From: an uncultured Salinisphaerales bacterium
GTDB taxonomy: Bacteria; Pseudomonadota; Gammaproteobacteria; Nevskiales; OUC007
Direction of reading: 5' to 3'
Length of the DNA: 40,856 nt
NCBI GenBank assembly: GCA_937896565.1
Contig: CALBOV010000039.1
Span: forward strand, 1 to 40,856
In this document: piece by piece, positions 16,960-40,218 of the stretch
Numbering within the stretch: position 1 is the stretch's first letter
Layout: each line of letters begins with the position of its first letter
Program-made: the position numbers and the translations under genes
Notes under the pieces: generated by a model
Told to the model about the DNA's origin: nothing
Databases searched by the model: none
What the model saw: only the letters and a program-made list of their open reading frames with translations

Positions 16960-16971
16960 TGACAAGTGTCA
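16960..16971. promoter_or_regulatory. Shared palindromic operator copy 1b (TGACAAGTGTCA)
   Basis: Perfect TGACA-NN-TGTCA palindrome 32 bp from copy 1a. Confidence 0.7.
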
Positions 16972-16995
16972 TGCCAACAACGATTGGAGGAGACC

Positions 16996-19107
16996 ATGAC
17001 GCAACAAAGCCTGGAAAAAGGCTGTGAACGGCCCGTAGTGGCCGCAGTACGTCGCCACCATGCCCACCGGCTGTGGCCCGCGCTCTTGTTGATGCTGGCC
17101 GCCGCCTGCAGCGGCGGGGGTGATCCGCAGACGGGGGCGACCGACCCACCCGATGGTTGCGCGTCCAACCCCGACGACTGTGGCGTCGCCGAGAACTACC
17201 CGCTGATCGGCAAGGCGCGCGGTGGCAACGTCTGGGCGAATTACTGCGAGGACAAGGCCGATTCGGCCGTGCTGCCCCGCGACCCGCGCGAACTGCTGAC
17301 ACCCGGCGTGAACGACGGCCTCGCGGTGGCGTTCAACGCTAACTGGCAGTCCTGCGACATCGGCGTGGAACGCCCGACCACCTGCGGAGAGATGCGCGAG
17401 CAGGCGGAGATCGGCAAGTTCGTGGCGTTCGGAAACGGGGAGGTCGGCAGTCCGGTGGCGTTCGCGGGAGGCCAGGACGCGCCTTCCGGTGTGGACGCCG
17501 AGAACTACAACAATCTGTGGCAGGTCTGGGGGCTGTCCGAGCGCCCCGACAACTTCGATGAACTGGTCGCCCAGCGGCACGGTTCTCCGCTGGCGCCCTG
17601 GCCCAATCCCTACCCGCTCCCCGGCGAGGATCCGAACGAGACGAACGGTGGCTCGGGCCAACTGCCGCTGGCCTACACGCAGATCCGTGAACCGGACGGC
17701 ACCTGGACCGGCGAGATCGGCACCAAGGTCTGCGTGTTCTGTCACAACGGCCGCATCGACACCACGAATCCCGATGTCGAACTGGGCACCATGCTCGGCG
17801 GCGCCGGCAGTATCGGGGACTTCGCGGTCTCCGGCTCCGATCTAGACAAGGCCGCCGGTGTGCTCGCCGCGCCCAGCCCGACATCGCTGATCACGATCTC
17901 GACCAACCGCGGCACCGGCGCCATCGATTTCTTCCAGCTCGCGTTCGTGCTGTTCAGCAAGGGCGACCTGGAACTGTTGCTGAACCCCAAGATCCTGTTC
18001 AGCCAGGCGATCGGCAACATCAAGAGCCCGCCGTGGTGGAACCTGGCCTACCGGCCGCAGAAATTCCACGGTGCGATCCTGCCCACGGACGCGTCACGAA
18101 TCGATCTGGCGGCGTATTACGACCTGGTGTCCAGCCTGTCGGGCGATGACGAAGCCGCGCTGGCGTGGAACGACGCGCATTCGGGGCCGTTCCAGGTCTG
18201 GGCGGAGACACAGGCATCGCCGCGCTACCCGGGCGAGATCGACATGGATCTGGCCGAGGCCGGCGCGGTGCTGTTCCATGCCAAGGACCTGTGGGCCGAC
18301 AATCTCAACAATCCGGTGCCCCGCCCCGACGAGGGCAACGGCTCCTGCGCCAGTTGCCACGGAGCCTATTCACCTCGCTTCATCCATGATCCGGCCTATC
18401 TGGAAACGCCGGAACTGGGCGGGCTGGCGGCCTACACCGTGCCGATGGACGTGATCCGTACCGATCCGACCTACGCCGAGGCCATGCAAAGCCTGCGCAA
18501 TCCTGACGGCAGCTTCCCGAATGCCACCGACCAGCAGAACTTCCTCTGGTGCGGCCACGGGAACTACGGCGACACCGAGAATCGCACGCCCATCCTGCTG
18601 GCTCCGCCCCTGTGGGGCGTCTGGGCGGCCGCGCCCTATCTGCACAACGGCTCGATTCCGAACATCTGGGGCGTGCTCGATCCCGCCAGCCAGCGCCCGA
18701 ACATCTGGCGCCGCGTATCCGCGCCCGCCCGGCCGGATCAGGAAGGCGAGGTGGTCATGGGATACGACACCAGCTTCGAGCGCGCCTACGACACCGAGCA
18801 CCTGGGCTGGAAATACGACGAGCTCCAGTGTGGTGACGACGGGACCGAGCCGTTCCTGGCCTGCAGCCCGCTCAGCGAAGATCAGCCATCCACGGCGCAG
18901 CAGGCGATCAGCCTGCTGTACGAGCAGATCGGCATCACCTGGAACCTGCCCCGCCCGGCCGGCATCCGGATGAGCGAGCAGGACATCGAAAATCGAAAGA
19001 TCTACAACACCAATCTCTACAGCCAGGGCAACCAGGGACACGACTTCACGATGGTGCTCACCGACGCCGAGCGACGCGCGTTGATCGAGTACCTGAAAAC
19101 CCTGTAG
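16996..19107 (+). CDS. RoxA/RoxB-like di-heme c-type cytochrome, lipoprotein (Rox-like 1)
   Basis: Lipobox LLMLAAACSGGG; CVFCH (17731-17745) and CASCH (18346-18360), 205 residues apart; SPPWWNLAYRPQKFH; paralogous over full length to two other window genes. Confidence 0.75.
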   Translation: MTQQSLEKGCERPVVAAVRRHHAHRLWPALLLMLAAACSGGGDPQTGATDPPDGCASNPDDCGVAENYPLIGKARGGNVWANYCEDKADSAVLPRDPRELLTPGVNDGLAVAFNANWQSCDIGVERPTTCGEMREQAEIGKFVAFGNGEVGSPVAFAGGQDAPSGVDAENYNNLWQVWGLSERPDNFDELVAQRHGSPLAPWPNPYPLPGEDPNETNGGSGQLPLAYTQIREPDGTWTGEIGTKVCVFCHNGRIDTTNPDVELGTMLGGAGSIGDFAVSGSDLDKAAGVLAAPSPTSLITISTNRGTGAIDFFQLAFVLFSKGDLELLLNPKILFSQAIGNIKSPPWWNLAYRPQKFHGAILPTDASRIDLAAYYDLVSSLSGDDEAALAWNDAHSGPFQVWAETQASPRYPGEIDMDLAEAGAVLFHAKDLWADNLNNPVPRPDEGNGSCASCHGAYSPRFIHDPAYLETPELGGLAAYTVPMDVIRTDPTYAEAMQSLRNPDGSFPNATDQQNFLWCGHGNYGDTENRTPILLAPPLWGVWAAAPYLHNGSIPNIWGVLDPASQRPNIWRRVSAPARPDQEGEVVMGYDTSFERAYDTEHLGWKYDELQCGDDGTEPFLACSPLSEDQPSTAQQAISLLYEQIGITWNLPRPAGIRMSEQDIENRKIYNTNLYSQGNQGHDFTMVLTDAERRALIEYLKTL

Positions 19108-26319: not shown

Positions 26320-27240
26320 TCAGACGGACCCGATGGCGATCCGGGGAAACCTCGGGTAGAGCGACTTCGGATTGTGTCCCAGGCGCCGGCAGGCTTCGAT
26401 CGCCGGGCTGCCCGGGATCATCCAGCGATCCGCGATACCGCCGGCCAGCCGGACAATCGGACGCTCCCAGGCGCGCAACCGCCACTGCGGACCGATCTCC
26501 AGCTTGTCCAGCGCCCAGGCCGGCACGATGTCCACCGCGGCGCGTAGCAGACGCTCCTGCAACGGACGCAGAGGCCGGGGGAACACGGCGGTCCGCCGCA
26601 TCAGTTCCAGAAACTCGAAGATCACCGGCGTCGGGGTCAGCCTGGGTTCCATGGTCTGGAACAGAGACTGCAAACCGGCCTCCGACGTGGGCGCACCCAC
26701 CGCTCCGTACAACCTGGCCGGGATGGCGCTCTCCCCGTAGAACGCGTCGCGCTCACGTGCGTCCAGCGCATGCACGTACTGCGCGTAGGCTTCCAGAAAG
26801 CCGAAGCTGGCGGTTGCCTGAACCCAGTTCAGCAATTCGGGTTCGCTGGCCCGGTAGGCCTGGCCACTGGCGGTGACGCCACTGACGCGATCATGCATGC
26901 GCCGCACGCCGGCAATCATGCGCTCGGCTTCGCTGCGAGCCCCGTATACCGTCATCATCGCGGCCAGCCCGGTCCGGCGCAGCCGGCGCAACGGGTCGGT
27001 ACGGAATGTCGTGTGATCCCAGACGCCCGCGCAGACCCGGGGCTCGGCCAGCTCCAGGATGACCGCGGTAATCCCGCCAATGTAGGTCGCGACCGGATTC
27101 TTGAACACCTGCCAGGTCATGGAGTTGGCCGGAATCAGCGCCGGCTCGCCCGGAGGGCTGGTGAAATCCACGCGACGCGATGACCCACCCTTTCCGCTGG
27201 GGGCCGCATGGTCGACGTTGGTCCGGCTGGGCTGGGTCAT
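26320..27240 (-). CDS. DUF2236 / MpaB-type oxygenase family (superfamily including Lcp rubber oxygenase)
   Basis: AGVWDHTTFRTDPLRRLRRTGLAAMMTVYGARSEAERMIAGVRRMHDRVSG...YRASEPELLNWVQATASFGFLEAY. Confidence 0.85.
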   Translation of the reverse strand: MTQPSRTNVDHAAPSGKGGSSRRVDFTSPPGEPALIPANSMTWQVFKNPVATYIGGITAVILELAEPRVCAGVWDHTTFRTDPLRRLRRTGLAAMMTVYGARSEAERMIAGVRRMHDRVSGVTASGQAYRASEPELLNWVQATASFGFLEAYAQYVHALDARERDAFYGESAIPARLYGAVGAPTSEAGLQSLFQTMEPRLTPTPVIFEFLELMRRTAVFPRPLRPLQERLLRAAVDIVPAWALDKLEIGPQWRLRAWERPIVRLAGGIADRWMIPGSPAIEACRRLGHNPKSLYPRFPRIAIGSV

Positions 27241-31156: not shown

Positions 31157-32350
31157 TCAATTCCAGCGGTACTGGATGGCCGCGCTGATCACCGAAAACT
31201 GCACCAGACCGGGGTTTTCGACAGCGACATCCTGCAAGGCATACGACGCATCGGCCTCGTAGCGCTCGGCCGCGAGCGACACGACCCAGGCCGGCCAGGC
31301 ACGTTCCACGGCCACCCGGACGCTGACGGCGCCGTAGGGAGACAGGCGATAGTCGCTGGAATAGTGCGCATCGCCCCGTTCCGCATTGAAATACGGGCTG
31401 TAGAAATCCGCCCCGCTCTGCTCATACCAGCGCAGCCGCGCCTCGGCGCGCCATTGGCCGCCGATGTTCTGCAGCCATGCGGCCTCGACGGTGTCCGAGT
31501 AAACGCCCCAGTCGTCACTGTAGAAGCGCGCGTCCAGATGGACCGCGGCCGCCAGCCGTTTCAGGTAGTGGCGCAGGCGGCCGGAGACCGACAGGCGGAC
31601 ACGACGGTCCGGGCGCGCATCCGGCAACAGGTCACCGTCGACGAACACCTGCTTGTAGGGGTCGGACAGATACCCCGTTTCGTAGGCAAGCGAGGCGCCG
31701 ACCTGCGCGACGGTCCGCGCCGAGAATATCTGGCTGAACCCGACCGACGATGTCACCCGGTCGCGATCCGCGGAGATGATGCGATCGGGAAAGCGCGTGG
31801 AACCGCCATCCGTCGGGTCCAGCTGATCGTAGGAATAGCCGATCGCCGCGCTGAGCGTGCGCTGGCGCTCGTCGAATTCCCACTCGCCCTCCAGCCCGCC
31901 GGTCAGCGCGAGATAGTCGTTCTCCGTGGAAATCCCCAGTAGCAGCGCCTTGGCGCCCGTCTCCTCGTGACGGGTGAGCCGGGTCATCAGGTCGTAGCGA
32001 TCCTCCTGAATGGTTGCACCCGACATCACCTGCACCGGCCGGCCATCCGCGCCTGGCGTGATGAACCAGGGCGAGGCCCCGGACATCGTCTCGATCATCA
32101 CGTCGGTTTCCAGCTCCAGCTCGTCGCCGAGCGGTCTGGAAAGCTGGAACTGGTGGGTGGAAATCTCGTAGCGGCTGGCGCTGCCGCCGGACAACCTGTC
32201 GTCCGGCAGGTCGTCCTCGCTGTAGTACGAATAGCGGTAGCCGACCGTTGGCTCGTCGACGGTGCCCGCGCGCGCGGGGCCGGAATAGACGGGCAACGCG
32301 GACGCCGCCGCCGTCAGCACGGCCAGCGTGCTCTTCTGGTGATGCGCCAT
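31157..32350 (-). CDS. DUF3570-family outer-membrane beta-barrel protein
   Basis: YRYSYYSEDDLP..., RYEISTHQFQLSRPLGDELELETDVMIETMSGASPWF; C-terminal IQYRWN; next to DUF4266-like gene. Confidence 0.75.
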   Translation of the reverse strand: MAHHQKSTLAVLTAAASALPVYSGPARAGTVDEPTVGYRYSYYSEDDLPDDRLSGGSASRYEISTHQFQLSRPLGDELELETDVMIETMSGASPWFITPGADGRPVQVMSGATIQEDRYDLMTRLTRHEETGAKALLLGISTENDYLALTGGLEGEWEFDERQRTLSAAIGYSYDQLDPTDGGSTRFPDRIISADRDRVTSSVGFSQIFSARTVAQVGASLAYETGYLSDPYKQVFVDGDLLPDARPDRRVRLSVSGRLRHYLKRLAAAVHLDARFYSDDWGVYSDTVEAAWLQNIGGQWRAEARLRWYEQSGADFYSPYFNAERGDAHYSSDYRLSPYGAVSVRVAVERAWPAWVVSLAAERYEADASYALQDVAVENPGLVQFSVISAAIQYRWN

Positions 32351-32382: not shown

Positions 32383-32622
32383 CTAGTTGCAGCCGCAGCC
32401 TCCGCCGCCCAACGCGGCGTTGTCGGCCGCCGCTTCCTTGCTGACGTAGGTATGCGATCGAATCGCCGACTCCCCGGCGATGCCGGCGCTCCAGGCCATC
32501 TCCGGCCGCGCCAGATCCCCCCGTTCCCAGGGTTGCAGCGGAGTCGTCGAGCAGGCCTGGAGCCCGCCGGCGATCAACAGCGCCACCAGACAGCACACCC
32601 TGCGAATCACTATGCGAGTCAT
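32383..32622 (-). CDS. DUF4266-family small lipoprotein
   Basis: LLIAGGLQACSTTPLQPWERGDLARPEMAWS...SHTYVSKEAAADNAALGGGGCGCN. Confidence 0.85.
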   Translation of the reverse strand: MTRIVIRRVCCLVALLIAGGLQACSTTPLQPWERGDLARPEMAWSAGIAGESAIRSHTYVSKEAAADNAALGGGGCGCN

Positions 32623-34996: not shown

Positions 34997-35482
34997 TCAG
35001 TCTCTCGGTGATTGGAAATCGGTGATTCGGGTGAGGTAGAAGTACAGGGGCAAGTCATCGCCCTTGCGATCCATCACGCCCATGACCACGTCATCGTTGA
35101 CGTGCTTGAAGTGGTCCATGATCGGGTGCCGGTCGTAGATCATCGTCGCGGTCACGACGCCTCGGTAACCGACCTGACGCAGCCTTGCGGTTCCCATCAC
35201 CGGGTTTGTGACGCGGCGACCGGCGTCGTCCAGCGTGATCATGGGCTCGACATGGTCGCGCGCATGGAAGCACTTGCCGTCCCAGCCCAGGTTCCGGATC
35301 TGGCGCTCGCCGGGATGGCCGGTGTGAAACAGTCCGCCCTTCCAGTCGCCGAACAGGAATGCCTCGTCACTGATCGATCGCAGCGACTCGAAGAGCCGAG
35401 CCAGCTCGCGCTGCTCGGCGGCCGCGGCACGGGCCAGCACATCCTCGAAGGCGCTGGTCGCGTGATCTGTTGCTCTCACCAT
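34997..35482 (-). CDS. GXWXG/DUF4334-domain protein
   Basis: FGDWKGG motif; MGTARLRQVGYRGVVTATMIYDRHPIMDHFKHVNDDVVMGVMDRKG. Confidence 0.8.
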   Translation of the reverse strand: MVRATDHATSAFEDVLARAAAAEQRELARLFESLRSISDEAFLFGDWKGGLFHTGHPGERQIRNLGWDGKCFHARDHVEPMITLDDAGRRVTNPVMGTARLRQVGYRGVVTATMIYDRHPIMDHFKHVNDDVVMGVMDRKGDDLPLYFYLTRITDFQSPRD

Positions 35483-35529: not shown

Positions 35530-37959
35530 CTAGAGCGTCTTGAGATACTCGATGATCGCGCTCACTTCCTGATCGGTCAGATTCTTGCCGAACTCGTGAC
35601 CGGCATTGCCCTGGCTGTAGAGATTCGTGTTGTAGGTCTTGCGGTCTTCCACCTGCTGCGGCGTGACCTGGGCGAACACGCCCACCTGCGCCAGATTCCA
35701 GACCAGCACCACGTTGCCGTAGAGCTGGTCGAACACGACCTGCAGCGGCGAGGCGCCATCCGTGATCGGGTTACAGGCCAGCAGCGGCGGGTTCACGGTA
35801 TCGGTCAGACAGGCGACGTCCTCGTACTTCCAGCCCAGGCGTTGCGCATCGAACGCCCGCTCCATGCTGACGTCGTAACCCATCACCGCCTGATTGATCA
35901 GTGGCCCCTCCTGACCCGCCGGCGTTGGCGTCGACACGCGCTTCCACATGTTCGGACGCTCATCCGGCTTGAGCAGTGACCGCACGTTCGGCACCGAACC
36001 GTTGTGCAGGTAGGGCGCGGTGGCCCACACGCCGTAGAGCGGCGGGGTCAGATACCCGTAAGGACGGTCTCCGCGCAGCTCGGGACGATTCTGCGGCCCG
36101 CAATCCTGATCGGTGCCGACGGTTTCCGGATAACCGAGAAAGCTGCTGGAGCCGAATTCGTTGACCGAATCGTTGTTGGTGTCGGCCCGCGCCCGATCGG
36201 TCCCGATCACGTCGTGCGGCGCGATGTAGGCGGCAATGCCTTCCATGACCGGGTCGGCCAGGAACTGCTGGTCATGGGAGAACTGCGGCGAATAGGCGCC
36301 GTGACAGCTTGCGCAGGACCCGTTGCCAGCCTCCGGGCGCGGCGGAAAATCCTCGCCCGCATCGGCCCACAAATCCTTGGTGTGGAACAGAATCGCGCCC
36401 TGCCTTGCCAGCGCCTCGTCGATCTCCAGCGGATAAACGGGAGCCTTGAGCGAACGCATCCAGATATCCGATGCCGGCGCCTGATCGCGCATCCAGTCCT
36501 CGGCATTCTCCGAGCCCAGCGGCATGTAGAAGATCAGATCGACGCGGGCGGCGTCGCCAGCGAAGAACCCGTCCTGGAACTTCAGCGGGCGGTGCCCCAT
36601 GTTCCACCATGCCGGCGTATCGCCCGATGCCGTCGACCCACTGGTCAGAACGCCGGCAAAGTGGGCGAAATCCTCCAGTCCGCTGAACCGCTCGATGTAA
36701 CTGTCCTGGGTAATGCCGAAGAAGATGTTGACGTCGCTGGCGTTGTTCGTGCCCCGGCTGGTGCCGAACAGCGAAAACAGGATGCCGGGCGACAGCGCGA
36801 TCTCGCCGATTTCGCGCGACATCAGCGCAATGTCGTGCAGGCTGTTTCCGCTGCCGTAGAGCAGCCCCAGCCCGTCGCCCTCGTCCGGCAGGCCCGCGGC
36901 CCCGGTGTGGCAGGCGTGGCAGGTGAACCCGAGACGACCCGTCCAGCTACCGTCCGGATCGCGGAACTGGGTCATGAACGCCGGCAACTGACCGCTGCCG
37001 GGGTTGGCGGGGTCATCGGCTTCCTCGTCGTTCACGGGATACGGATTGGGCGTCTGGCCGATGGGCATCCCGTAGCGCTCGGAGACCAGGCGATCGAAAT
37101 TGTCCGGCCGCTGCGTGAATCCCCACAACCGCCATAGCTGGTTGTAGTCGCTGGCGGAAATGCCCAGCAGCGGATTGGAGTGGTCGTTGCCGGCGAAGAA
37201 CGATCCCGAGGTGATCTGACCATTGCCTTCCATCAGCGCCCGCCCCTTCTCCCAGCGCTGACGCAGATCACCGCAGGTTTCCGGATGCGGCGCCTCGTTG
37301 ACCAGATCCGGATAGGCCCGGCAGTCCTTCCAGGTGACATTGAACATGACCGCCTTGTCGTCGCTGACACCGTCCTGGACCAGCGAGCGCGGATCGGCCG
37401 GGAGCACCGTGCCGTCGGGCTGCCCCTCGCAGAAGTCGAACCACAGATGCCCGCCGCGCTTGCTGCCCAGCAGGGCCAGGGTTTCGCCGCCGCCCGGCTC
37501 CCCGCCACCCGCGGCACAGCTGCCTCCGGAGGAGAAGCTGGCGATCAACGCGGCGGCGTCATCGTAGGCGGCGCTGCCCTGCGGCCATGGCGAACCGCCG
37601 GAATGGGCCCGATCGGCGGTGCCGGACGCCATCTGCAGAATCAGGGACTGATCAGCCGAGAGACTTCCGATCCGCTCCCAGGACGCCATCAGATGGTCGA
37701 AATCCTCGGTCTGGTCGCCGGACAGCATGAAGCGCTCGCCATCCGGTACGTCACCCACACCGCCAGGCACGTGACAGGTTCGGCAGTAGTCCATCCGGGG
37801 CTGAACCCGGGAGGCGAACAGCTCCGAACAGTCGGCCGGTGCAGCACCACCGCCCGCGTTATCCGACCCGCCGGCGACGTCACCATCGTAGTCACCACCC
37901 ATGCCGCAAGCCGCCAGCAATAAGGCAGCGGCAACAACGATACCGTTGGTTGACTTCAT
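35530..37959 (-). CDS. RoxA/RoxB-like c-type cytochrome lipoprotein with extra N-terminal heme domain (Rox-like 2)
   Basis: Lipobox LLLAACGMGG; three CxxCH: CRTCH (37771-37785), CHACH (36907-36921), CASCH (36301-36315); C-terminus IIEYLKTL as in paralogs. Confidence 0.75.
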   Translation of the reverse strand: MKSTNGIVVAAALLLAACGMGGDYDGDVAGGSDNAGGGAAPADCSELFASRVQPRMDYCRTCHVPGGVGDVPDGERFMLSGDQTEDFDHLMASWERIGSLSADQSLILQMASGTADRAHSGGSPWPQGSAAYDDAAALIASFSSGGSCAAGGGEPGGGETLALLGSKRGGHLWFDFCEGQPDGTVLPADPRSLVQDGVSDDKAVMFNVTWKDCRAYPDLVNEAPHPETCGDLRQRWEKGRALMEGNGQITSGSFFAGNDHSNPLLGISASDYNQLWRLWGFTQRPDNFDRLVSERYGMPIGQTPNPYPVNDEEADDPANPGSGQLPAFMTQFRDPDGSWTGRLGFTCHACHTGAAGLPDEGDGLGLLYGSGNSLHDIALMSREIGEIALSPGILFSLFGTSRGTNNASDVNIFFGITQDSYIERFSGLEDFAHFAGVLTSGSTASGDTPAWWNMGHRPLKFQDGFFAGDAARVDLIFYMPLGSENAEDWMRDQAPASDIWMRSLKAPVYPLEIDEALARQGAILFHTKDLWADAGEDFPPRPEAGNGSCASCHGAYSPQFSHDQQFLADPVMEGIAAYIAPHDVIGTDRARADTNNDSVNEFGSSSFLGYPETVGTDQDCGPQNRPELRGDRPYGYLTPPLYGVWATAPYLHNGSVPNVRSLLKPDERPNMWKRVSTPTPAGQEGPLINQAVMGYDVSMERAFDAQRLGWKYEDVACLTDTVNPPLLACNPITDGASPLQVVFDQLYGNVVLVWNLAQVGVFAQVTPQQVEDRKTYNTNLYSQGNAGHEFGKNLTDQEVSAIIEYLKTL

Positions 37960-38021
37960 GTCTCGCTCCATCGCAACCAGGCGAGCCGACGGCCCTTCAG
38001 GGCTCTCTTGCTCGCTGTTTA

Positions 38022-38033
38022 TGACTTTTGTCA
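38022..38033. promoter_or_regulatory. Shared palindromic operator copy 5 (TGACTTTTGTCA)
   Basis: Matches TGACW-NN-TGTCA upstream of Rox-like 2. Confidence 0.65.
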
Positions 38034-38124
38034 GTTTATAGGCTGGGCAACGCTTGTCAACACGCATGGATGGCGGGGACGGCCCGGCGTAATGTCCGGA
38101 TCGCCCGCGCCATCCCCGCATCGA

Positions 38125-40218
38125 TCAAAGCGTTTTCAGGTACTCGATGATTGCCCGCCGCTCCGCGTCGGTCAGCACGTCACTGAACACGTGACCGCCG
38201 TTGTCCTGGCTGAACAGGTGGGTGTTGTAGATCTTGCGATTCTCGATCTGCTGCGGCGTCCACTGCGCCAGCACGGTGGCATTGCCCAAATTCCACGTCA
38301 GCAGCACGTTGCCGTACAGCTCGGACAGAATCTGCTGCAGCAACGGGTCCTGCTCCGGCTGTAGCGGATCTCAATCCAGCAGCGGAATCGTGCCGTCGCC
38401 GCAGGCCAGTGCATCGTAGGACCAGCCCATCCGCTCGGGGTCGTAGGCGCGCTCGAGGTCGGTGTCAAAGCCCATGACCACCTGCCCCACCTGGTCCTCG
38501 CGAGCCGGCTCGGACACGCGGCGCCAGATCGCCGGGCGCTCATCGGATTTCAGCAGCGACCAGACATCCGGCACCGAACCGTTGTGCAGATACGGTGCGG
38601 TGGCCCAGATGCCGTACAGCGGTGGAGCCAGATAGCCGAGCTCGCGATCGCCACGCAAATCGTCGCGATTCTGGGCCCCGCAGTCCTGATCGGACCCGAC
38701 GGTTTCCTCATAGCCCACGAAACCGGACCCACTCGATTGCTGGACCGCCTCGTTGAACGCGTGCATGCGCTCCGGGTCCGTCTGGATGATGTCCATCGGC
38801 ACGATGTACGACGCGACACCTTCCAGGGCGGGATCGGCCAGGAACGCGGGATCGTTGGCGAAATGCGGGGAGTAGGCGCCGTGGCAGCTCGCGCAGGACC
38901 CGTTGCCGCCATCGGGCCTGGGCACCGGGTTGCCCGAATTGCCCGCCCAGAGATCCTTGACGTGGAACAGCAGCGCGCCCTGCCGGGCCAGGTCCTCGTC
39001 AATCTCCATCGGATAGGTCGGCGCCTTCAGCGACAGCATCCAGTGATCCGCAGCCTGATCATGCGCCCGGACCCATGCCCCGGCGTCCTGACCGGTGGGC
39101 ACCGGCCTGTTGTCGAGCAGCGGCGTGTAGAACGCCATGTCGACTCGCACCGCATCCGTCGGCACGACACCGTCGATGAACTTGGCCGGTCGGTGGCCGA
39201 GATTCCACCAGGCCGGCGTGTCCATCGACGCGGTCGAGCCGGAGGTCACCCAGCCGGCGAACTGCTGGCCAAAGGCGGCACCGCTGTCGGCCGGACTCGG
39301 AATCGCGGTGATGTTGGCGAACTGCGCATTGTTGGTGCCGCGACTGGCGCCGAACAGCGCGAAGATGCCCATCGGCGGCGCACCGGCAATCGCCAGATCG
39401 CGCGCGATGACGCCGATGTCGGGCAGACCGGTTCCGCTGCCGTAGAGCGCGCCGAGCGCATGCCCGTCGGCTGGTGAGCCGACCTCGCCGCTGTGACAGC
39501 CATGACAGGTCAGGCCGATGTTTCCGCTCCAGCTGCCGTCGGCGTTGCGGGTCTGGGTCATGTTGATCGGCAGCTGCCCGGAGCCGCCGTCGACCGCATT
39601 GGGATCCTCGCCCGGCAACGGGTAGGGATTGCGCTCGGTGCCCAGCGGCACGCCGAACCGCTCCGCGACCAGATAATCGAAATTGTCCGGCCGCCCGGGC
39701 AGCCCCCAGGTCACCCAGAGGTTGTTGTAGATATCCGCGGGAAACGACAGGAATCCACTGGGCTCGGTCCCGGCGAAGAAGGTCCCGGCGCCGACGGCAC
39801 CGTTGCCGACCATGAGCTGATGCCCGCGCTCCCAGCTCTCGCGCAGCTCTCCGCAGGTCTCGGGATGCGGCTGCTCGCCAACCAGTTCGGGATCGACATG
39901 GCAATCCTTCCACCAGGCGTTGAAGTGCACCGCCTTGCCGTCACTGACGCCGGGCTGCACCAGCGCCCGCGGGTCCCCGGGCAACGCCGCGCTGTCCGGC
40001 TGACCCTCACAGAAATCGAACCAGGCGTGCCCCCCATGCTTGCTGCCCAGCAGCACCAGCGAGTCACCGCCTCCCTCGTCGGGGACATCCTGCACGGGCG
40101 CATCGCCCGGTCCGCCCTCGACGTCGCCGGCACAGCCGGCAGCCCACATCACCAAGGAACAAATACCGATCAGGGCGCCCAGACGCACCGATCCTGTCAA
40201 ACCCGGCAGTTTCCGCAT
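38125..40218 (-). pseudogene. RoxA/RoxB-like di-heme cytochrome lipoprotein interrupted by in-frame TGA at 38371-38373 (Rox-like 3); may still be functional
   Basis: ORF 38371-40218 (CHGCH 39493-39507, CASCH 38881-38895, lipobox MWAAGCAG) continues in the same frame after TGA with conserved C-terminus ...IENRKIYNTHLFSQDNGGHVFSDVLTDAERRAIIEYLKTL. Confidence 0.75.

Follow-up and report, generated by a model that had tools for sequence, protein, structure and literature searches.

A putative third-haem domain on a RoxB-like lipoprotein and its linkage to a predicted flavinylated electron-transfer system

The locus analyzed here raises the question of why a Rox-like lipoprotein should carry an additional cytochrome-like domain in front of its di-haem core, and with what partners this domain could exchange electrons. 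In the 40,856-nucleotide stretch of DNA considered in this study (the window), an uninterrupted open reading frame of 863 aa, 35530-38121(-), holds the sequence strings on which the first-pass annotation based its claim of an extra N-terminal cytochrome-like domain with a third CxxCH motif, and the domain was indeed found there (Table 1). Its size had been given as about 130 extra residues; the insert is real, but 142 residues separate the lipid-bearing cysteine from the core, and the folded domain occupies only a part of them.

A GGAG immediately 5' of M55 (37957-37959(-)) makes this codon the preferred start of the gene, with M51 (37969-37971(-)) as the alternative. Translation from M55 yields the N-terminus MKSTNGIVVAAALLLAAC, a lipoprotein signal with the lipobox LLLAA followed by the lipidated residue Cys72 (37906-37908), and the mature protein has a computed pI of 4.46 and a mass of 85.3 kDa without haem. 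A lipobox is present in 70 of the 74 Rox relatives with a third CxxCH, as against 20 of 55 other Rox homologues. With its three CxxCH motifs the protein (hereafter three-haem Rox) is a predicted tri-haem c-type cytochrome, and would be an outer-membrane-type lipoprotein in which a bis-His c-type cytochrome domain precedes the Rox di-haem core.

Table 1. Coordinates of the three-haem rox gene, its motifs, and neighboring genes in the window
Feature	Coordinates	Strand	Basis or detail
Three-haem Rox-like lipoprotein gene	35530..37959	-	809 aa (start M55), 792 aa when mature (from C72)
Lipoprotein signal peptide, MKSTNGIVVAAALLLAA followed by C, lipidated Cys72	37906..37959	-	Sequence
N-terminal cytochrome-like domain, residues 95-202 (108 aa)	37516..37839	-	NCBIfam RoxC match; AlphaFold2
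Third haem-attachment motif CRTCH, residues 113-117, proximal His117	37771..37785	-	Cys/Cys/His 100% kept in 74 aligned domains
His173 (HSGG), distal axial ligand predicted for the third haem	37603..37605	-	100% conserved
Cys98...Cys202, predicted disulfide	37516..37830	-	Mutually exclusive partner positions
Rox (di-haem peroxidase-like) core	35533..37479	-	337 bits to RoxA 4b2n; Foldseek 4b2n E=5e-45
Core haem 1 motif CHACH (His405), RoxB-type	36907..36921	-	Motif comparison
Core haem 2 motif CASCH (His607)	36301..36315	-	Alignment to RoxA
Distal His842 of core haem 2	35596-35598	-	Alignment to RoxA H394/H641/H517
MauG-type His706	36004-36006	-	Alignment to RoxA H394/H641/H517
Phe531, equivalent of catalytic Phe317 of RoxA	36529..36531	-	Alignment
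Gln516, equivalent of W302 of RoxA	36574-36576	-	Alignment
DUF3570 protein, two SGA[ST] motifs (SGAS, SGAT), predicted ApbE-flavinylated	31157..32350	-	Pfam E=5e-61; biochemistry of one homologue, PMC8238504
DUF4266 small lipoprotein, C-terminus GGGGCGCN (CXC)	32383..32622	-	Pfam E=1e-16
Upstream neighbor, a Rox-like paralog without the third-haem domain; TGA in frame at 38371-38373	38125..40218	-	Sequence
Rox-like paralog, no third-haem domain, lipobox	16966..19107	+	Passes the NCBIfam RoxB cut-off (950.7)

The third CxxCH is not a chance occurrence, because such a motif appears within the first 205 residues in only 0.17% of composition-preserving shuffles and is conserved in relatives. Both cysteines and the histidine of CxxCH, the histidine of HxGG, and one tryptophan are invariant in 74 aligned domains. 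The HSGG motif, overlooked in the first-pass annotation, contains the likely second axial ligand, His173. The spacing between the two histidines is 54 in 47 of the 74 domains (range 52-62) and 56 in the three-haem Rox of the window. Cys202 is conserved in nearly all domains together with one of two alternative partners, either a cysteine a few residues before Cys202 (66 sequences) or one preceding CxxCH, as Cys98 does here (7 sequences); no sequence has both partners, and one has lost all three cysteines. This pattern looks like a single disulfide with a switched partner, and such covariation argues for a real, maintained fold. AlphaFold2 predicts four helices with pLDDT of about 90-95 across the domain, both within the whole protein (mean pLDDT 85.8, pTM 0.91) and alone. 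Thus, as judged from conservation and modeling, the domain is real and folded, and haem binding through CRTCH and the invariant distal histidine is very probable.

A search with the domain alone, the check proposed in the first-pass annotation, gave a mixed outcome, with positions 43-151 of the NCBIfam model NF051462 (putative rubber dioxygenase RoxC) matched at E=2.6e-34 and no family found in Pfam. Searches of the PDB by sequence and by fold likewise gave no relative of the domain; because both Pfam and PDB lack one, its fold class is left unnamed. Remote relatives of the domain occur inside two unrelated large proteins, in a 3220-aa frame (L075, G224:C21; E about 1e-8) and in a 988-aa frame (L167, G127:C1; E about 1e-4), which suggests that it belongs to a broader family of cytochrome domains not represented in Pfam.

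A third haem on Rox proteins is already known and is built into the NCBIfam RoxC model, so that the novelty ascribed to it in the first-pass annotation does not stand. Its statement that known Rox enzymes are di-haem applies to the characterized RoxA and RoxB, but a third N-terminal CxxCH was reported in a substantial number of RoxC proteins by Prakash et al. 2024 (PMC10837239). For instance, RoxCFth of Fontimonas thermophila has CRTCH44, axial ligands H44/H98 (a spacing of 54, as in most third-haem domains), and three Fe3+ haems (PMC10837239, Table 1). Two RoxCs were expressed in that study, one of them three-haem; both were ferric as isolated and did not cleave rubber. RoxB35Y was also ferric as isolated, yet active (PMC10837239), and therefore some Rox proteins may not need reduction. 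RoxC is the largest Rox group, comprising 243 of the 458 homologues in the 2024 survey, and has no known function (PMC10837239). In the literature that we searched, from which most subscription journals fell outside, we found neither a RoxB-like, Phe317-keeping core with a third haem nor a link between Rox and a flavinylated electron chain.

The core of three-haem Rox begins at L215 (37477-37479) and extends to the C-terminus. The whole AlphaFold2 model matches RoxA in Foldseek, the NCBIfam di-haem cytochrome c peroxidase model matches the core at E=2.5e-29, and the MauG motif PYLHNG is present; the RoxA numbering used here (F317, W302, H517, H641) was checked against 4b2n. The protein scores 846.7 bits with the NCBIfam RoxB model NF050034, 763.7 bits with the RoxC model NF051462, and 408.6 bits with the RoxA model, in each case below the membership cut-off (900, 900, and 1000 bits, respectively). 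Trees were built for 131 Rox cores and, by a quick IQ-TREE search, for a smaller set of 43 rows. Three-haem Rox is sister to a homologue from Solimonas fluminis (IQ-TREE support 99) within a clade (support 97) that includes the secreted CHACH/Phe/Val RoxB lineage, and the CFQCH/Ala RoxC lineage forms a separate clade (support 100). A plain RoxC identity was rejected, as the score, the motifs (CHACH, Phe531), and the tree are all against it. By these sequence comparisons the core falls outside strict-sense RoxC, and its nearest lineage is RoxB, with the qualification that the published RoxC cluster is drawn more broadly and may include it.

Three-haem Rox is not unique, as relatives with the same domain were found. 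The domain is present in 78 of the 128 classifiable Rox homologues of our set. The first-pass annotation allowed that it might prove to be a common feature of characterized Rox enzymes; it is common in homologues, but absent from RoxA and from the secreted, characterized RoxB lineage, that is, from the active enzymes. Third-haem relatives above the RoxB cut-off include those of Zhongshania marina (914.8), Perlucidibaca (973.4), and S. fluminis (922.5). Since several Rox lineages include proteins with the third haem, it is not a RoxC hallmark. On the 43-taxon tree at least 11 gains or losses of the domain are required, and with the domain lost repeatedly the core can therefore work without it in cis.

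As noticed in the first-pass annotation, the domain is absent from both Rox paralogs in the window; a second domain-bearing Rox is encoded elsewhere in the genome (C256:14453-16872), split over two frames. The in-frame TGA of the upstream paralog occupies the position of a conserved cysteine in relatives, and beyond it the Rox C-terminus is intact over about 80 codons. Selenocysteine was considered and rejected: no SelB scored above the family cut-off, tRNA-Sec matches were only at or near threshold, and the hairpin did not stand out (z -1.8). As the genome has no SelB above the cut-off, the TGA is probably a point mutation or an assembly error. The plus-strand paralog (16966-19107) has Ala and His at the F317 and W302 positions and groups with third-haem lipoproteins; its automatic name, "rubber dioxygenase RoxB", may be over-called. 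A conventional secreted RoxB-type protein with CHGCH, Phe, and Val and without a lipobox is encoded in the same genome (L005, G000:C20:17545-19506). Among other homologues, L032, L047, L058, and L071 are Rox proteins in frames of 1055-1369 aa with a third CxxCH and RoxA-like equivalents of both Phe317 and Trp302; some of them adjoin DUF3570 genes.

A same-strand run of genes from 40218 down to 26320 comprises the TGA-bearing rox, three-haem rox, a GXWXG/DUF4334 gene, two acyl-CoA dehydrogenases, DUF4266, DUF3570, a TetR regulator, a class III CoA transferase, an SDR, a nitronate-monooxygenase-like protein, and an MPAB/Lcp-type oxygenase; two TonB receptors on the other strand come next. The gene content could fit isoprenoid or lipid breakdown at the cell surface.

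Two gene families of this run recur near other rox genes. The MPAB/Lcp-type oxygenase (26320-27240(-), Pfam E=2e-49), which shares the locus with three Rox homologues, has homologues beside RoxB genes in Paraliomyxa, a Polyangia MAG, and Povalibacter. The GXWXG/DUF4334 gene (34997-35482(-)) and a second one in the same genome (L042:795-1340) each lie directly 3' of a rox gene, and a further one is near a RoxB gene in Paraliomyxa (L101).

The DUF3570 and DUF4266 genes are on the same strand as three-haem rox, 2.9 kb downstream. DUF3570 proteins are flavinylated by ApbE at two [ST]GA[ST] sites (Meheust et al. 2021, PMC8238504), and their genes cluster with those of thioredoxin-like proteins, DUF4266, and sometimes DsbD; DUF3570 was assigned to an electron pathway with DsbD, thioredoxin, and DUF4266 (PMC8238504). 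The main text of that paper makes no mention of rubber, oxygenase, or peroxidase. No ApbE gene was found in the window, and three are present elsewhere in the genome, one of them adjoining another DUF3570 gene of this type; no thioredoxin-like gene was seen between the acyl-CoA dehydrogenase and DUF4266 genes of the window.

In two other genomes the domain occurs as a separate protein. The one in G013 (L163, plus strand) is a lipoprotein with the third-haem domain and one more CxxCH; after its gene the same strand carries, in tight or overlapping order, DUF4266, DUF3570, ApbE, a thioredoxin-like gene, and a two-haem Rox. G006 (L160, minus strand) has the first five genes in the same order, and Rox lies 1.4 kb further, past an opposite-strand gene.

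For a broader comparison, 283 relatives, 31 genomes with Rox and 252 others, were searched for both Rox and DUF3570. A Rox-associated DUF3570 type, delimited post hoc by scores of about 158-225 bits and taken to include two fragments in G007, was found in 29 of the 31 Rox genomes and in 6 of the 252 others (Fisher p=2e-31, inflated by kinship and draft assemblies). Kinship does not bear on the distance between the genes in the way that it bears on this genome-level p-value: the Rox-associated type is within 5 kb of Rox in 17 genomes and within 25 kb in 21, often at about 200 bases, whereas none of the 11 cases of the second DUF3570 type (at least 266 bits) in these genomes is near Rox. In 75 separately fetched loci, DUF3570/DUF4266 genes flank 10 of the 41 with the third-haem domain and none of the 34 without it (p=0.0015), four out-of-frame DUF4266 matches (L056, L076/L143, L089, L107) having been excluded beforehand. 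The remaining 31 of the 41 loci have no DUF3570 within 6 kb, which counts against a role of the third haem as an electron port, as do the activity of the ferric RoxB35Y and the repeated loss of the domain. One of the two Rox genomes without the Rox-associated DUF3570, G016, also lacks the third-haem domain. The linkage spans the Nevskiales and other lineages (Spongiibacter, Zhongshania, Perlucidibaca). The sequences show the domain with its conserved ligands, the lipobox, a RoxB-like core retaining Phe317, and a linkage, both physical and phylogenetic, to DUF3570, DUF4266, ApbE, and thioredoxin-like genes.

We suggest, as an explanation somewhat better than an even bet, that the third haem serves as an electron port, connecting the Rox core with a flavin/thiol chain of DUF3570, DUF4266, ApbE, and thioredoxin-like proteins. 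The idea of an electron entry or exit site, raised in the first-pass annotation, is favored by the split-gene case and by the strong linkage to a flavinylated electron-transfer system. The thioredoxin-like protein and the CXC lipoprotein DUF4266 would deliver electrons to the FMN-bearing barrel DUF3570, its FMN being attached by ApbE, and from there they would pass to the third haem and into the Rox core. The flow would most likely be inward, with the electrons reducing the ferric active-site haem (CHACH) so that O2 could bind, and the CASCH haem acting as the electron-transfer haem of the core; the reduced core would then cleave an isoprenoid or another unsaturated lipid held at the cell surface. 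For haem occupancy, inter-haem distance, electron flow, its direction, and the substrate, all of which we infer, the chain of support is genetic. The ferric state of the purified, non-cleaving RoxCs would be expected if a reductant were missing. At slightly less than even chances, we extend this suggestion to many Rox homologues, including the RoxB-like Phe keepers, which could be terminal oxidoreductases of a flavinylated outer-membrane chain receiving electrons through a fused or separate cytochrome domain.

Thioredoxin-like and CXC proteins are able to reduce the thiols of CxxCH ahead of haem attachment, and the DUF4266, DUF3570, ApbE, and thioredoxin-like proteins could be maturation or redox-stress helpers, which would for instance hold the cysteines of haem motifs in the reduced state, while the third domain would serve for docking or stability only. 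The many third-haem loci without a nearby cluster would agree with such a role; however, a flavinylated DUF3570 is unnecessary for maturation, the cluster is found in the flanks of none of the 34 two-c-haem RoxB loci, and the domain adjoins it as a separate cytochrome in G006 and G013, all of which makes helpers of this kind quite unlikely. The same architecture could also end in a peroxidase or MauG-like oxidase, in which electrons arriving from the flavin chain by way of the third haem would serve for the reduction of H2O2 or restore a high-valent haem. The core is a member of the di-haem cytochrome c peroxidase/MauG superfamily, the two tested RoxCs did not cleave rubber, and only Phe317, not Trp302, is kept in three-haem Rox. 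Nevertheless, we consider a peroxidase unlikely, since the core is nearest to RoxB, a lineage of active oxygenases, and retains CHACH and the Phe317 equivalent, and the presence of an MPAB/Lcp-type oxygenase, a class III CoA transferase, and two acyl-CoA dehydrogenases in the locus fits isoprenoid or lipid breakdown.

Finally, electrons could leave through the third haem, the core oxidizing its substrate and the flavin/thiol proteins serving as the acceptor. Gene order does not reveal the direction of flow, and the eLife authors noted a possible reversal (PMC8238504), but the DsbD-linked system that they described sends electrons outward to thioredoxin-like and flavin proteins (PMC8238504), and known Rox chemistry uses O2 rather than a protein acceptor. 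We therefore regard exit through the third haem as very unlikely. The reception of electrons by many Rox homologues from a flavinylated chain, if true, would account for the ferric and inactive state of purified RoxC, the linked reductant system being a concrete reason for the inactivity of the tested RoxCs, and would provide a terminal enzyme for the DUF3570 systems, to which no purpose has been assigned. An oxygenase anchored in the membrane and driven from within the cell would also bear on rubber and isoprenoid breakdown.

The locus combines traits of several known systems. As in the system of Meheust et al. (PMC8238504), the DUF3570 protein of the window has both [ST]GA[ST] motifs and DUF4266 ends in CXC; unlike in that system, the ApbE and thioredoxin-like genes are not adjacent in the window, ApbE being encoded elsewhere in the genome. 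Three-haem Rox shares its fold and three key core histidines with RoxA (4b2n), which differs in having CSACH and Trp302 and in lacking the third haem and the lipobox, where three-haem Rox has CHACH and Gln and keeps the Phe. With RoxC, as represented by RoxCFth, it shares the lipoprotein nature that most RoxC members have, the acidic pI, the N-terminal CRTCH domain with the second axial histidine about 54-56 residues past CRTCH, the CASCH core motif, and the MauG motif; the core haem motif of RoxC, however, is CFQCH in place of CHACH, and the two expressed RoxCs have Ala at 317 and Phe at 302, where three-haem Rox has Phe and Gln. RoxB is a secreted di-haem protein and has Val at 302, in contrast to the lipobox, third-haem domain, and Gln found here, but RoxB35Y has the same CHACH motif and the same Phe at the 317 equivalent (RoxB Phe309), and RoxB is the nearest core lineage.
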